Source: Thysanoteuthis rhombus
Lineage: Eukaryota; Mollusca; Cephalopoda; Oegopsida; Thysanoteuthidae
Assembly (NCBI GenBank): GCA_963457665.1
Contig: OY735209.1
Location: forward strand, 9,471,814 to 9,535,813
Direction: 5' to 3'
DNA length: 64,000 nucleotides
Positions 7,437-42,592 of the stretch are shown here, piece by piece. The notes beneath the pieces are model-generated. The model saw only the letters and a program-made list of their open reading frames with translations. It did not search any database and was not told the origin of the DNA. The position numbers and the translations under genes are program-made. How positions within the stretch are numbered: the stretch's first letter is position 1; the number at the start of each line of letters is the position of its first letter.

Positions 7437-7600
7437 AATTTTCTAGCTTTTTTAAAGGCAAAAATGCCTTACTCGTAATACTATTATGACATCATAGTAG
7501 TTGGTTTCTTAATGGTGTCACATCTTCAATGACATCACCTCTTCCTTCTAATTTAACAATTCTACTTGTAGAATCCTATACACTAAAAGCAATGAAAGTC
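7437..7600 (+). repeat. Dispersed repeat with TGACATCA words, copy 1
   Basis: Contains TATGACATCATAGTAGTTGG, TTTCTTAATGGTGTCACATC and TTCAATGACATCACCTCTTC, matching 17360-17480 in order. No coding potential. Confidence 0.65.
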
Positions 7601-7609
7601 AGTTCATAT

Positions 7610-10500
7610 ATAGCTACAATGCAGAGGAAGTAACCACATTTTGATTTAACATACATTGACTCGATCATGAGGAAATAATCTAACTCAATTCTTCCTTAGC
7701 ACATGGCCCACCCTTCCATTGTTAACTCTGGGGAAATATTTACACCAGTGGTACCAAAACTTTGTCATAAAACCCTTATACAATTTCTAAAAATCATGGA
7801 ACCCATACCTATATTTTATGGACAACCCTAGCCACCCTAATTCTTAAAAAAACATTACATGATACAAAAATTGTTTTAGAGAGGATTCATTGAAGAAGAA
7901 AAAAAAAAAAAGATGAATTTTCATTAAAATAAAATATATCTAATTTTCATGAATTTGTAATCATAAAAAAGAAATTATTAAAAGACGATCAATGTGAAAA
8001 ACATTGCTGCTTCTTAGACTCCAGTATCCTCTGAAAATTCGGTTCGATATTGGATGATTGAATTAACATATCTAGTTCAGCATCTACTGATACAATTATA
8101 GTTCTTGTGCAAAATATTTTTTTTTTTTTTACTGAAATAAATTATCAAATTTCATCAAAAAACAATTTATCTTGTGGAACTCCAGAATTGTACCATGGAA
8201 CCAACTTTAGGAAAACCCTGGTTTAAATGAACAATTGGATACATTAACCTGTTTCAGCTTTGTTCTCAGAGAAATTAATCCTATTCAAGCACATCAGATA
8301 AAAGAAAATCAATCTGAGTTTGTTTCATATTCCAAACAGTAGAGAACGAAACACATTGGCAACAAAATAAAGAGAAAGAACGAAACACATTGGCAACAAA
8401 ATAAAGAGAAAGAAAACCCAGAAGAGTTATGAAGTCCAAAAGTTCACTTCAAAGTATATCTTAGTTACCAATAGAAAATTATTGTAAACATAGGACAAAT
8501 TTGAAGTCATAAGGAGGTTAATCATTTCAATTCCTCGATTGAACCTTTCATTTGAAGAATATAAGTGGGGGTTGGGGAGAAAAATCTTTTGAACATTCCA
8601 TTCTCATTTGATTCTTTCAAAGCAATCACATTATTTGCACATTTCAATTGGGTAAGCTACACGATCATGACAAAAAAAAAAAAAAAAAAAAAAAAAAAGA
8701 AGACTTTCCTTATCTGAATTTTGTTAAACATGGTGTTTCAATTATTGTATATGATTAAGTTGGCCCTCATCTTCGTGGCTCAAACAACGGCTAATGAAGA
8801 CCCAGTGGTATACAGCCGGAATGTGGAAAAAATGATTAACAAAGACAAGGAAAACAATAGTCTGACTAAACTACATGCAATTATGAAAAAAGGCTGCTGT
8901 CCTTACAACTCAATGACCCAATTTACAATTAGCCAAGTCGAAATATAAATTGTTATTTATATCAACTTAAATGTGAGAACATAACTCAAAACAATTGTCA
9001 TCAAAGCGAGTCAAAAATACTAATTCTCAAATGTCAAACAAAAACAAATATTTAGGAAGAATTGCTGATATTTGTACAAGAATAGAAAGCATGAAATATT
9101 CAAGTTGGAGACAAGAATCCAGAAGTCAGAACAATATTTGTGATATGATAAATAAAATGTGGCATAAGTCCCAGTAAGGAGATAGGATGGTGGAGGGCTT
9201 CAACATTCTGATTATCAACTTCACTAATCACATTCAGATCCAGCATTTGTTACAGCTTTTTACTTCAAGACTTAATTGACAAAAGAGTAATTTTTTTAAA
9301 AAAATCCAATCAATTCACTGCAGAACTAAAAATATACCATCATATACTTAGATTAAAAACAAAATTTATTGGGTTCTTCTATTTATAAAATTTCTTCACC
9401 TAGATATTTTTTCAAAAAGTGTAGTTCTGTCTGGTTCAGGGTCTGTAGTCAAGTAAATAAATGCTTATATAATTCAATCAGCAGTTTACGTCCACCTTAA
9501 CACTAGGAGCTGGGTTGAGTTCTATATTCACGACAGAGTCAACCAAGTTTTACATTCCCTTGATACAAGGTCTAAGAATCATAAGTAGGTAGCAAGTAAA
9601 CATACCAACTACATTGCTGAAACAGGTGTACTAAAAGGGATAGCTTTCATGGACATAGTCTCAAGACACTTGCGTGTGTGAGATGATCCTAAAAAGAAAT
9701 TTTGATTCTGAGTGCGTGTACAGTTATGTTCTCTAGGTTTATTTGAGGATGGTACATAAATTCTTATCCTATTCTAGGGAGATTTATCTGACTACCAGTA
9801 CATTTAACACCCCCCCTTCTTATGTAAATAATCTATTAACATGAAATTTGCTATCCAACAATATACAACATTACCATATTTGGTAAAATGTATTTAATCC
9901 TGACCATAGTCTAGAACTCAAAATGACAGACAACCAACCATGAATCAGCAAGAGCCACCTACTTTTTGATAATACTTAGACCATGTATCAACAAAATATC
10001 AAGTCAGACTTGACTCAGAGATGGATACAGTATGGAGGACCTGACCCAGCATTCACAGAAAAACAGTATCAAAATTTCAGATTGGAGCCATTTTATTCAG
10101 TCCTGGCAATTTTATCTAACACTTGGCAAGTCTATTTACTTATATTAGAGGAAAACAAAATACAGTCATTTTCAAGGCCTATTTTACAATTACTTGCAAT
10201 CATTAGGGATTTCATTTTATATATTTCTTTGACCTAGATTACGTCAAGGGGTGATTCTGCAATTTTACCAAGGGTAGGGTCCAAAATAAATAAGAGGAAA
10301 GGAGACAAATTTTTTTGCTATCATTTTCTGGTGCTTTTCAAAGTTTTCTAAGGTAATGGTAGTGGGAGGGGTACAAAGTAATTAATGTAAACTGGGACGT
10401 TAATTTCCGTTTATCTTACGGAAGTAGGTCCTCAAGTTATGAGCTACGTAAAATGGTAAACACTAAAGTAGTTCATCATTGCATCAGTTTTTTTACTGTG
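7610..10500. other. No gene seen
   Basis: AT-rich. Includes a 28-base A-run at 8670-8698 that may mark a retrotransposed 3' end, and the 34-bp duplication annotated separately. Confidence 0.6.
8344..8411 (+). repeat. Perfect 34-bp tandem duplication
   Basis: GAACGAAACACATTGGCAAC plus AAAATAAAGAGAAA occurs twice in a row without difference, so it is recent. Confidence 0.9.
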
Positions 10501-33545: not shown

Positions 33546-34369
33546 TTCTAGAAAGAAATATGTATCACAATAACCTGTTATAAAACAATAAATATAAACT
33601 TGAAGAAAGAAATTGGTCATTTTTTAAATTAAATTTCTTTTTATACTGGCTTTGATGGCATAGTCCTATTCAACATAACTCACTAATTTTATCAACAAAT
33701 CTGCATATTTGAAGAAGCGACCAATTATACCTAGGATTGTCATAGAAGTCGTTCCCGCAAATATCTCAGCTGGAACAGTTGTGGCCGAATTTTTTGGTTG
33801 CCTCTATAAATAATATTATCCCCATTTTGGAACTGCAGGCATTCGAGAAACCTAAACTGCATCATAACCAAACTGGGATCAATTTAGCTACTTTGGAGTA
33901 AGGTCTAGCTATTTTGGAGCTAGATTATTATTTTGGGGTTCACTATCCATCGGGGTTATAACACAAACCTTGTTATAACAGAGGAGGCCTGTGTCAGTCA
34001 CTAAATTGAAAATGCCACACATCAGGTTTTCAGACCAAGTTATGAATAAATTTTATCAACAAAATATTCGGCAAACTTTTTACGTTTTGTGTGTATTTGC
34101 TTTCATACATTTTAAAACCATTTACATAGCAGTTATAAATATTCTCTCTGGCAAATAATCATATTATTTGATCATACAGAAACTGTCTCTTCTCCTACCT
34201 GTCTAGAAGAAATGGGGGCTAACCTTGACTTTTGGTTAGTTAGTTGCAAACACTCTTTTGTTACAGATTGGACTGTTAATTTCCTAACCGTACAGATAAC
34301 TTAAAACACTTTCACAGGAAAATAGCTTCAATGACTCCACTGACAATCTACTGCTTCAGTACGTAGAAG

Positions 34370-34610
34370 TTTTTTTTTCACTTTTTTCATCAGAATTTAG
34401 TCCTAAATCAGAATCCAATTGATGCCACCTTTCAAAGCTTAGGCAATTTGAGATATTTGGATGAATTGATAATGATGTCATTTCGGCTGGGATCCAAAAG
34501 GGGTTGAAAACCAACTTGTCTGAATGTACACTGGAAAAGAAATTAGAAAAAAAATTTTAAGCTATAAGAACCAAGGGTTGAAAACCAACTGAAAATTAGA
34601 TAATGATCAT
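34370..34610 (+). repeat. Left inverted repeat of the 4.5 kb element
   Basis: About 240 bp matching, inverted, 38655-38900. Strongest match around 34385-34450 (start TCATCAGAATTTAGTCC); it weakens inward. The outer limit is uncertain within about 20 bp. Confidence 0.65.
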
Positions 34611-34628
34611 TTCAAGCTTTCTATTTCA

Positions 34629-34927
34629 TGATACAACACAACAAAAAGCTTTACCATTATGATACAACACAACAAAAAGCTTTACCATCATGATACAACA
34701 CAACAAAAAGCTTTACCATCATGATACAACACAACAAAAAGCTTTACCATCATGATACAACACAACAAAAAGCTTTACCATCATGATACAACACAACAAA
34801 AAGCTTTACCATTATGATACAACATAGCAAAAAGCTTTACCATTATGATACAACACAGCAAAAAGCTTTACCATTATGATACAACACAACAAAAAGCTTT
34901 ACAATTATGATACAACACAACAAAAAA
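34629..34927 (+). repeat. 31-bp minisatellite, about 9.6 copies
   Basis: Tandem unit TGATACAACACAACAAAAAG plus CTTTACCATCA (31 bp). Units differ at only a few sites (ATCA/ATTA, AACA/AGCA). Each holds AAGCTTT. There are no unique spacers, so it is not a CRISPR. It lies just inside the left inverted repeat of the 4.5 kb element, as subterminal tandem repeats often do in DNA transposons. Confidence 0.95.
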
Positions 34928-34979
34928 TCAAGATAGGTTTATATCCCATTGAAAATGATATTGAATTTTTGCAGAGTTT

Positions 34980-37900
34980 ATCACATTGTCTGATTGCAGA
35001 CTTTTATCATTTGAATTTATGCAACTGCTGAGAGCACAGGAAGTTCAGTCTTTAATATCCTCATCCAGTAATTCCACAACAAGCTTAGCTGAACATCTCT
35101 GCAGAAAACACACATTAAGCTGCAAGTGATCTTTGCTGATACACTGAACATCTTTTATTTACTCATGGTGCGCTTGATGAGAAGCCATATCTTATATGAT
35201 CGATGGTCTCATTTGGTGCTGGTGAAATGCCATCAGGTATTGCGACTTTGTTTTCCTTGCCACATTTCCATCCTTACAATGCGGGATCAAGTTTCAGAGG
35301 ATCTGATTCCAATGTAGGGTACCAGGTAGTAGACTGTAAATGGGTCCTTTTTTTTTTTCAAAAGCTTTATCTATGGGTGGGCTAAGATCTCAAAGGAGGT
35401 ACAGTTTTTCTGGTGTTCAAGCTGATTCTGTATTTGGTCATGTTCTTTGTTTCCAACATGTAGCAGCTACTAATCAAGGAAGCAGGATCCTTGATGATAA
35501 TATCAACACTAGCATCAACATCCCCAGGAAAATTCAATTGAATTCCTTTGTCTTCTCTATGCCATGATATAGTGCAATATCAGAACCAGATACTGCATAG
35601 ACTGCAAAGAGGCGAGAGATGATACTTTCCTTGTATGTTACAATACCATCTATATAAATCATATCATTCTCTCCACTCATTTCTTGCATAAGAACAATTG
35701 CTTTTAGTCCTAATTTCCAATAAAAGTGCATAGAGCACAAGTACATAAAACACACACACTGATTTAGTACCATTCTCAAGGACTGAATGAAAAGTTAACA
35801 GAGAAGTTCCATGAAGAGGTACCTTGTGGTTTTTAAAAAACCACTTATTAAGCTTATTGAGACCTTGGACATACTCAATAAATCTTTGCAAGTTAATAAT
35901 GTCGCAGTAGACGAAGACTGAGCGTTCAGACAATCGAACAATACCTGAGAGCCCAGGGTACCAAGGGGCCCAAGTAGCCAAAGATTAGCTTCTTTGTATG
36001 TTGTTGTGTTGGGTCTTCTTTTTCAAAGACAATGCCATTGTGTACTTGGATAGGTGTCATAGAGGAGCCAGTCACAATTGGAGAAAATTGTGTTCTCCTC
36101 AAAACAACTGTAGACACTAATTGGTCGCATACAAGTTTGATTATCTGTGATTTACCATGGCTGGTGATGAGAAATGTTGATTTGGCTGAAGGAGTGGAGG
36201 GTGGTGCTGTCAGTGAGGTTTTTCCACAGCCAGATCTTGTTGAAGATTTTATACAAAAGTCAAAATATCTATTAAAAACCAGATTAGTGTCACCCTTTTC
36301 AAACATGTCCAAGCATGTAACCTCTTACATTGTCTACATAGTCTGATACCAATACCCTCATGGGCCAATTGACTAACTACAATATTGCATGAATTACAGT
36401 AAGCTCTGGCTGCTTTATTTCATAAGATATAACTTTATATCCAGTCATCTTTGAATCAGGCTTTGCCTTGGTTGCCCTCATCTCACCACTGTCTTCAAAG
36501 AGAGATCTTGGAATCAGGTACAGCTCATGTTTTCAATTTTCATTGAATGATTAGTTAGTTTCGTTGTAATGACTCTGAAATAGATGAGGGAAGTGTTTTA
36601 ACTTTGACAAAGGGATGGACTGACAGTGATTTGGGCCCCTATGCCAAAGTGGTTACTAGCTCCTTGACCCATCTTATCCTACTCTCCATTCTATTCAGAT
36701 AGAACAGTGGGGATTCATAGTGTTATTCATCTTAGCTATAGCACATTGATTCATTTGAAGCCACTTCAAAAATGTGACTTTTGCTACTTGGGCCCCTTGC
36801 TGCCACAGGCCCTCAGGTATTGCCCAATAGCCTGAACGCTCAATCACTTTGACTTCATTAACTTGTACAGATTTCTGAAGTTTGTCCATAGCCTTTACAA
36901 GCTTACTGAGTGGTTTGTAAAACCCATGAAGTAACTCAGCATGAAAGTTCTCTGCCAGCTCTCAACCAATCTCGATACATCAATCTATATTGACATCCTT
37001 GTTTGGAAGCTTACCTGGGGGAATGTTCACAATGTCAGATGGATGTTCCTCAGTAGAAAATGGATTTTGTATTTTCTCTCAATCTTGTCTATCTGTAACA
37101 ATTATAGACGGCTCCCTCTCTCCTGGGTTTGGTTACATCTGTTTTTTGATTTGATTCCTTTAATTCCAAGATCTTTCCCAGGGTGCTGGACTTGGGACTT
37201 CTTGGCCAGCAACGCAAAGCCTTTTCATTTAGTATAATTTCTTCCATTCCCAAGGAACTATGGCCATAACACATAATAGTGGTCTCTGTCATCCTATTGG
37301 ACCAAATAGAATTCCACAGGACATTCTGATGCATCATGACATGCTCTCTGCAAATAAACTCCACAAGAAGATCTTTGGGTAGCTTGGTCATTTTAATCAA
37401 ATGCACTATTGTTGAATTCCAATGAACACGAGCAACAAGATAAAGGAAACTGAGCTCAAGAGTATGGAATGTGCAAAGGGTTTCTCTGTTTGTTCTGACA
37501 AATTGCATTGCCAAAATATTTGGCTGAATAAAGGCATCCAGCCACAAATGAGCAGATCTATTGATGGTGGCAATCAGTTCTAATCTAATTCATCAAATCA
37601 TCATAATCTTTCAAAGTTTTATCAACCGAAATAGGGCACAGTATCTCCTTTGCATGTGTGTGTAAAGCTTGGTTGTTCAGTTGGAAGTTGTCTCTAATCA
37701 GCATCTTTTCGACACCTTCCAATTCAGCCTTTAACGTGTCACCTAAGCCTGTGTTTACCATCAATATGCCAATACAACCAATAAAAGATATCAATGTATG
37801 CATTTTGCTTAGAACAGGGTAGATATTTTTCCATCTATCTGGCTGCAACCAAGTGACTTAAGTAATAATTCTGAATAATTGCTGGTCATTTGTAAATACT

Positions 37901-38070
37901 GTGCAATTCTGATCAGCCTTTTCAGTTGTAGACAGTACAAGGTGCATAGTAGTCAATAATGCATCTGGTTCAGCAGAATTCATATTGATGAGTGGTATGT
38001 ATGTTACATGTGAGGCTGGTTGGAGCTCTAGCCCCGACTCTCTGGTAACTTTTTGTATTGAATCCATTGT
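34980..38070 (-). pseudogene. Decayed gene of an expanded invertebrate family, function unknown
   Basis: Open - strand blocks continue one another in a single protein order despite stops and shifts. They are 38067-37860 (with CTVFTNDQQLFRI), 37848-37585 (HTLISFIGCIGIL, then GVEKML), 37547-37250 (WNSIWSNRMTETTIM, LNEKALRCW), 36889-36695 (QVAKVTFLKW), 36312-36150 (NLVFNRYFDFCIKSSTR), 36100-35930 and 35779-35560 (AVYAVSGSDIALYHGIEKTK). A further degenerate tail reaches about 34980. I recall this order, especially the SGCDT-like and GIGK-like motif, from a highly expanded, uncharacterised family in invertebrate genomes; that is memory, not a search. There are at least six frame interruptions, so it is not functional. 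It fills the 4.5 kb inverted-repeat element, so it is probably that element's cargo or protein. Confidence 0.6.
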
Positions 38071-38654
38071 ACTCAGGAACTTTTACATCATTGGCAGTTA
38101 GTTGGAAGAAACGGAGATCATTTCTTGAGACAAAGTCACAGATTACTGCGTCATTAATAACTTTTTCAATCTATCAATCCAAAAATAGTTAAATCAATTG
38201 TTATCAGGAAAATTTATATGAAGAAAAGATCACAGCAGTTCTATCACTCAAAAAGCAGCTCTTACTTAGATTTTATCTACCACAAATTTGTGATAGAATG
38301 CAAAATGAACTTAAGCTTGCTGAGATACTGAGAGTAACTTCATCCTTCAAAAGATTAAGGAACTTATTCAATACTATCTGACAAGGTCAAGGTTAATTGA
38401 GAGTTTAGGTCAAGTGACACATGAATCAGTTTTTACAGAGGTGACAGAACTTAGTAAATTTGATAAAGCTTCTATTTCTTTGATAAGCTCTCAAATATTT
38501 ATGTCACTGCCCTTAAACAGTACATGATTTTAGATGAGAATGCCATTAGGTAGTATAGAACATAGGTTATGGGAATATCAGACTTTAATTTCTTAATTTT
38601 TACTGAGATACATTTTATATTGGTTTACCTCAGTGAATCTTAAATTGAGTATAT

Positions 38655-38900
38655 ATGTAATTTTCTGTTTAGTTTCAACCTCTGGTTTTATAACAATTTG
38701 TTTCAGCAAATAATTTTCTTTCGAATGAAATATTAATGTATATTTGGACAACTTGGATTTCGACCTCTATTGGGTCTCAGCCCAAATGATGCCATTTTGG
38801 ATTTGCCCAAATATTCCTGTTTGTTCAAGCTTTGACAGGTGGCATCAATCAGATTCTGATTCAGGACTAAATTCTGATGAAAAACAGTGAAAGAAAAACC
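38655..38900 (-). repeat. Right inverted repeat of the 4.5 kb element
   Basis: Reverse complement of 34370-34610 at roughly three-quarters identity by eye. It includes AGGTGGCATCAAT and AGGACTAAATTCTGATGA in the outer half. Confidence 0.65.
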
Positions 38901-39874
38901 CATAGCATGCTAAAAGGCAAGCTTCTTTGCAATTTTCTGTAATTCCCGCAAGACTACGTCCATTAATTGATCTTAGACTATTTTTAATCTTTAGAATAAC
39001 TTTTAAAAGTCCTTTTCAGAAAAAATATTTTAATTACTCGTCAATTAATTTGATCTGAGACAGAGCTAATTCAAAAAATAAAAGCAGAAATATGAATAAC
39101 CATAATTGAGCATTTTAAAGTTCAGCAAGAATTTTAAGTTGTTTATGATTCACTTAGAAAATTTCAGATACTCACCCATTATACTGAAAAATTGAACGTA
39201 TCAAATAACTGTGGCCCTATGAAGTGCCCAACCAACCAGCCAAGTGAGCTACAGATTATTCTCTCTCGAGTGTTCATGTGTCTGTGGCTATGTGTCTCTG
39301 GGTACTCCTGATCACATTTTTGGGGTTACAGCCTCAAAAATTTGCATACCCTCTCCACTAGGCATCATCTAGGGATGCTTCTTTTTTGTATGTTCAAAAA
39401 ATTGCTTTTTTTGGTCTTTATGGTCATTTTGGACCAACTGACAATGCCCAAAGATGAAATATTTTTTAAAATAATTTCCGATAAAAGATCCATTTGAAAA
39501 AATATTTTTCAGATAATTGTTCTGGTACATGTGCGGGCTATGGTGATCCATTTATGTGAGATACAGATATTATTATGATAAAGTTGATGTTGCAATATAT
39601 AATATAAAGTTCCTGTCTTTATCATTGCACAGAAACTATCATGCAACTGGCTAATATGACAATATTTCAAATTTTAACCGGATATGTGAGCTAGAGGGAT
39701 GAAAATCTAAACGTACACCTTAATGTGACCACAAAAAACAGTTTTTCTGTTTTGGGGAAAATTCCTCCGCAAAAGAGTTTTTTTGCTTACACACTGACAG
39801 AGTTTTCTTCTAATTGTAGTACGATGATTTATATACTAAAATTGATCCTTTAATGGTACAAGAGAGAAGCCCAA

Positions 39875-41764: not shown

Positions 41765-41892
41765 ATTACTGAAATAAATATACCAAGCAACCTGCACATG
41801 AAACGAGTAGGGTTGTTCAAATATTTTTGAGATAAAAATAGATATTTGAGGTAGGAAGAATGGAAACGCTGGAAAAATAACGTAACAATATC

Positions 41893-41965
41893 CGACCCTG
41901 ATGGGACTTGAACCCACAATCTTCGGCTCCGGAGGCCGACGCCTTATCCATTAGGCCACAGGGCC
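41893..41965 (-). tRNA. tRNA-Arg (anticodon CCG)
   Basis: Full 73-nt cloverleaf on the - strand. The acceptor GGCCCTG pairs with CAGGGTC (one G-U pair) and the discriminator is G. The D arm carries the A box TGGCCTAATGG. The anticodon stem TCGGC/GCCGA encloses loop CTCCGGA, so the anticodon CCG reads CGG. The T arm has loop TTCAAGT. A run of five T on the transcribed strand (41873-41877) gives a pol III stop about 16 nt downstream. CCA is not encoded, as usual for eukaryotes. It sits about 130 bp from a fold-back element and 650 bp upstream of HUS1, in the opposite direction. Confidence 0.96.
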
Positions 41966-42592
41966 ACGCCAAAGAGGGAAGAAATTTAAGTATATATTCC
42001 ATAGAAGAAATTTAGCACTGAATCTTCATTAACAACATCGATATTCTAACTCGAGATTTGTGAATAACGTCAAAAATCTGACTAAGAAAAAAACCAGGGT
42101 GAAAAATTCACGTATTCTCGTCTGCGTTGATCACCGAGCCAAATCTACATCGTTTTTGTTCTATTTAAGCGACTAAAATTAACGTAAATCAGAAAAAAAC
42201 GAATGACTACGACATTGTTATTTAGATATTAGGTCTACCTAATTTCATTTTTATTCACTGTGTACGAATTACCCAGAAAAAAGATATAAAAATCTGGTGA
42301 GAAAATATATAAAAGAATGTAAATAACAACAAAGTGTTTCGTGCGTGATGCATCCTGCCCAACTTTCAAAGCCTAATTCATTCTTTTTGAGTAAAGAAAT
42401 AAAAACAGACGATAATGTTCGTCATTCTCAAAGTGAAAAAAAATTATAACTTGTTTTTTTTTTCGTTCTTAGTAAATTAAAAAGTCTTTATAATGAGAAG
42501 AAAAAATAATCAAATAATAGGTAAAAAAAGAAAATATCGAAGATAGAGGAATTATATCTCGAGTCAGTGCATCACGTCTTATTTGGAGTAAA

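Follow-up and report, generated by a model that had tools for sequence, protein, structure and literature searches.

A decayed, probable AcademX transposon with a transposase-nuclease gene in the cephalopod Thysanoteuthis rhombus

The nuclease of AcademX DNA transposons is of the XPG kind. The Academ superfamily and its AcademX lineage were reportedly described by Kapitonov and Jurka in 2010 and by Kojima in 2020, work known to us through the papers that cite it. The available sections of PMC10045372 give target-site duplications of 9-10 bp for AcademH and 3-4 bp for AcademX and tie them to the encoded helicase and nuclease, while excerpts of PMC3627910 mention a RecQ helicase in Academ, which fits the helicase lineage and not the element described here. 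In its excerpted parts, PMC10294476 puts the mean length of Academ consensus elements from bivalves at 5,565 bp and describes Academ as nearly restricted, among molluscs, to bivalves.

Here we analyse a block at 34199-38956 of a 64,000-nucleotide stretch of the Thysanoteuthis rhombus genome (the window; assembly GCA_963457665.1, contig OY735209.1, positions 9,471,814 to 9,535,813 of the forward strand), with coordinates counted from its first letter. With a probability of roughly 85%, we take the block for a dead class II (cut-and-paste) DNA transposon copy from the AcademX lineage of the Academ superfamily. A DDE transposase, a nuclease, terminal inverted repeats and a target-site duplication of 3 bp together lead to this filing; AcademX is most likely the right lineage by architecture, the comparison being one of descriptions. 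A sequence-only reading of the window had proposed an undescribed mobile element. The mobile-element guess was right, but the element most likely belongs to a kind described before; the features listed above fit the published AcademX. Overall, the interpretation given by that reading is partly supported, and the observation beneath it is confirmed.

Ends, copies and target-site duplications

The imperfect inverted repeats first seen at the ends of the block are real: 34370-34530 is 76% complementary to 38737-38897 over 161 nt without gaps, and blastn aligns 163 nt at 79% (E about 1e-34). Their limits had been drawn too far inward, as the outer flanks of other copies align over about 60 bp of further common sequence beginning TAGTC, and the true ends lie at 34199 on the left and 38956 on the right. 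A 4-bp duplication (GTAG / ATAG) at the original limits was rejected, since the ends of other copies extend further out. The element and its ends are as follows.

34199..38956, - (gene strand): whole element, decayed copy, 4758 bp (many-copy end alignment and boundary test)
34199..34239, +: left terminal repeat, outer part; type A end, 3' of the gene (blastn against outer flanks of other copies; profile match)
34240..34358, no strand: interruption of about 120 bp in the left terminal repeat, limits approximate (gap between two profile matches; blastn match offset)
34359..34534, +: left terminal repeat, inner part, the portion noticed originally (self-alignment, blastn, profile match)
38732..38956, -: terminal repeat on the right; type B end, 5' of the gene (end alignment, profile match, boundary test)

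The interruption (about 34240-34358) has no counterpart in the ends of other copies, and it makes the outer part of the A end easy to miss.

A search of the genome (2.73 Gb, 514 contigs) with the left repeat returned at least 40 scored matches from 67 candidates, the window's own two ends among them, and 25 repeat-selected stretches were taken from it (20 at first, five added later). Across copies the two end types keep a fixed orientation, with A lying 3' and B 5' of the gene. Directly outside the ends, 5 of 11 end pairs carry an exact 3-bp duplication (ATC, TAA, ATA, ATG and AAC). With words of this length (k = 3), the twelve alternative offsets between -6 and +6 gave no match, and mismatched pairings gave 1 match in 110. 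At k = 2 there were five matches at offset +2, which arise from the TA...TA termini, and at most three at any other offset; k = 4 yielded a single match, at offset +2. The matches at L025 and L026 were known before the boundary rule was set, whereas L030, L031 and L032 were fetched after it and played no part in defining the TAGTC start.

Among the non-exact pairs, L021 and L028 match at 2 of 3 bases, and L029 and the window copy do not match. In the window copy the three bases just outside the two ends are TAC and CGT, so its duplication was lost or never present. Also counted among the 11 pairs are L009, which has a truncated gene, and L024, in which the two flanks form an inverted repeat; neither has a duplication. 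Loci with one end, those whose second end is partial (L014, L020) and L034, which has two ends and an uncertain left boundary, were left out of the count. The flanking inverted repeats of L024 (6783-6999 versus 8941-9153, 78% over 217 bp) would fit a copy nested in a larger palindromic element, or one with longer terminal repeats. Some copies are short, such as L021 (1.57 kb) and L029 (0.46 kb).

The proposal that the inverted repeats belong with the gene held up. A gene match at E <= 1e-3 occurs in 19 of the 25 repeat-selected stretches, some of them short (in L024, two pieces of 27-28 residues), and none at this threshold in the other six (L011, L015, L016, L017, L021 and L029). A genome search with the homologue P0001, in which 104 candidates out of 384 were scored, gave at least 116 matches. 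Stops occur in 105 of them, the remaining 11 are fragments covering no more than 160 query residues, and no intact copy is present among these listed matches. Clustering the matches listed gave 35 loci for the repeat and 79 for the gene. A gene match lies within 10 kb of the repeat at 19 of the 35, versus 0.02 expected, and a scored repeat lies within 10 kb of the gene at at least 20 of the 79. As the repeat search scored only 40 candidates, the remaining gene loci are not evidence of absence. Gene copies free of the repeats had been named as one of the findings that would count against the proposal; as far as this check was run, all three fetched gene loci without a listed repeat have at least one end by profile, and one has both. 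Together with the duplications that bound the ends, this gene-end link supports spread of the family by transposition in the source genome, as had been suggested.

In L027, by eye, a long interspersed element (LINE) reverse transcriptase-like open frame lies at 7486-8094 (+), between the gene remains and the terminal repeat.

The transposase-nuclease protein and its remains in the window

Three successive homologue searches returned 3, 25 and 186 proteins, the last at E <= 1e-10 from 7,995 scored candidates; the details given here rest on 120 of the 186. Uninterrupted predicted proteins of 1,450-1,500 residues make up 41 of these 120. The named homologues come from Branchiostoma (lancelet), Nucella (dogwhelk), Holothuria (sea cucumber) and Pinctada (pearl oyster), the records P0023, P0060 and P0106 being from lancelet, sea cucumber and pearl oyster, respectively. 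Their annotations read uncharacterized, hypothetical or CXC-domain protein (the last in two cases), and never transposase. Three homologues (P0056, P0089 and P0119) are filed in bacterial metagenome bins (Sedimenticola, Bacteroidota), which probably contain animal DNA; no relative was confirmed in two scans of viral contigs or one of prokaryote genome contigs.

Full-length relatives encode a single protein of about 1,450-1,500 residues. Its N-terminal region has conserved cysteines and histidines and is joined to a DDE transposase of RNase H-like fold, which contains a helical insertion, and to an EXO1/FEN1/XPG-type nuclease. Several also carry a cysteine-rich CXC tail, which in P0014 scores below the Pfam cut-off. 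Structure prediction, proposed as a check, gave an RNase H-like DDE core whose helical insertion precedes the last E and, for a homologue, an EXO1/FEN1 nuclease fold. The D, D and E residues are conserved, and an XPG-like motif is visible by eye in genome copy L027. Of the two roles first guessed for the protein, transposase or cargo, the predicted fold thus bears out the former. The nearest solved folds to the transposase part are the P element and hAT, while the named top rows of a BFVD fold search are XRN- or XPG-type nucleases, the others being unnamed or uncharacterized herpesvirus proteins.

Sequence profiles identify little of this protein. At most, Pfam gives DUF6589 (PF20231), above cut-off in 1 of 9 proteins scanned (best 7.3e-07) and, in another scan, at E <= 0.01 in 2 of 14. 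It covers the helical transposase part in some members and is a precomputed domain in three listed homologues. Pieces of the window and P0001-P0003 gave Pfam matches only far below cut-off, and no helicase family appeared among the Pfam matches of the homologues scanned. Profile searches against PDB sequences gave no useful match, the second nothing at E <= 1; a match to splicing factor CEF1 (E 0.0067) was taken as chance. Our literature search found DUF6589 unmentioned, PF20231 only in an unrelated context, and nothing pairing Academ with XPG and transposase.

Within the window copy, the following features were identified.

34628..34926, no strand: 31-bp minisatellite, 9.6 copies, 97% matches (repeat scan)
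35139..38122, -: transposase-nuclease gene remains, broken by stops and frame shifts (tblastn of homologues)
35400..36547, -: strongly decayed XPG/FEN1-like nuclease part; approximate limits (tblastn and predicted fold of a homologue)
35832..35983, +: inverted duplicate of gene segment 36778-36922 (self-comparison)
37116..38052, -: remaining transposase (DDE) part (frame translation, tblastn, conserved residues)

As first described, there is one broken minus-strand gene, running from about 38122 to 35139 through several frames with stops, and the peptide blocks quoted for it (e.g. WSNRMTETTIM, FDFCIKSSTR) are found in minus-strand frames. By tblastn it is collinear, with gaps, with residues 277 to 1148 of P0014 and 205 to 955 of P0023. 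The second D codon of the DDE triad is at 37885-37887 and the E codon at 37284-37286. A search of the window copy for the block of the first D, run at up to E <= 10, yielded nothing but a single chance match elsewhere; L014 keeps this block (E 9e-6), and L009 does so weakly (0.029). The window copy is dead, an ordinary fossil, given the stops and frame changes throughout, the missing first catalytic block, the partly lost nuclease motifs, the internal inverted duplication, the interrupted left end and the private minisatellite. The minisatellite, correctly reported as present, was rejected as a working part of the element, because none of 28 other loci carries one, allowing up to 8 substitutions per unit.

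Gene segments lie inverted inside the element in three copies (the window, 35832-35983 versus 36778-36922; L018, 6876-6983; L031, 1705-2087), through either decay or recurrent rearrangement. Elsewhere, the window contains tRNA genes for Arg (CCG) at 41892-41966 (-) and for Ser (GCT) at 61203-61286 (+) and 62653-62736 (+), the two Ser genes having equal Rfam scores and lying 1.4 kb apart.

Alternative readings, possible mechanism and comparison with known systems

A host gene family that grew through ordinary duplication and happens to lie near unrelated repeats would suit the annotations of the named members, none of which is called a transposase, yet we give it almost no probability: repeats and gene co-occur far above chance, and the repeats stand in fixed orientation to the gene and are flanked by target-site duplications. 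Placement in another known superfamily with a 3-bp duplication is very unlikely. CACTA/EnSpm and PIF/Harbinger also make duplications of 2-3 bp or 3 bp, but they are defined by CACTA termini and a TWA target duplication, respectively, whereas the termini here are TAGTC and, of the five exact duplications, only TAA is TWA. Nor is an XPG-fold nuclease, to our knowledge, a feature of either.

A separate, undescribed DDE superfamily, resembling AcademX only in its nuclease and 3-bp duplication, is a stronger alternative that we still regard as unlikely. It would be in keeping with a best Pfam match of unknown function that reaches cut-off in one of nine proteins, with the silence of the literature search on DUF6589, and with nearest solved folds in the P element and hAT. 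Against it, a DDE transposase, a nuclease and a 3-bp duplication are together the published AcademX set, and Academ is common in bivalves and similar in length, as far as the excerpted sources go.

On the AcademX reading, the transposase-nuclease protein would bind the terminal repeats, whose outermost bases are TAGTC; its DDE site would cut and join strands with a 3-base stagger, giving the 3-bp duplication, and the nuclease may trim flaps or nicks at the element ends. Tentatively, two nucleases might thus cooperate in one polypeptide, the DDE site joining the ends while the FEN1/EXO1-like site cuts end flaps or nicks and helps set the stagger, although we think this somewhat doubtful. If true, it would be a transposition route unlike the solved P, hAT and RAG systems, and the basis of a large group of animal genes without useful names. 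What the fused nuclease does becomes testable, now that both the protein and the ends are defined. A group of uninformatively named animal proteins from lancelet, sea cucumber, pearl oyster and dogwhelk is now tied to a specific transposon, which aids repeat masking and gene annotation.

Compared by description, the element resembles AcademX in its DDE transposase (predicted fold; conserved D, D, E), element-encoded nuclease (EXO1/FEN1 predicted fold in a homologue; XPG-like motif in L027), duplication within the 3- or 4-bp range (3 bp, exact in five of the 11 end pairs), terminal inverted repeats and similar length; no difference was found on this basis, the window copy itself lacking the first catalytic D block. 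AcademH, as its available description goes, has the superfamily and a DDE transposase in common but carries a helicase and makes 9-10-bp duplications, whereas the family described here has a nuclease fold and 3 bp, and none of the 11 pairs matches at k = 9 or 10 (the L032 flank being too short for these k). The P element, hAT (Hermes) and RAG1/Transib share, by predicted fold, the RNase H-like DDE core in which a helical insertion precedes the last E, but have no XPG-type nuclease, and none was listed in the PDB-sequence profile searches; their duplications are 8 bp (P, hAT) and 5 bp (Transib, RAG). DUF6589 is weak or absent in most members scanned. Unlike the EXO1, FEN1 and XPG nucleases, the version in this family is fused to a transposase and borne by a transposon.
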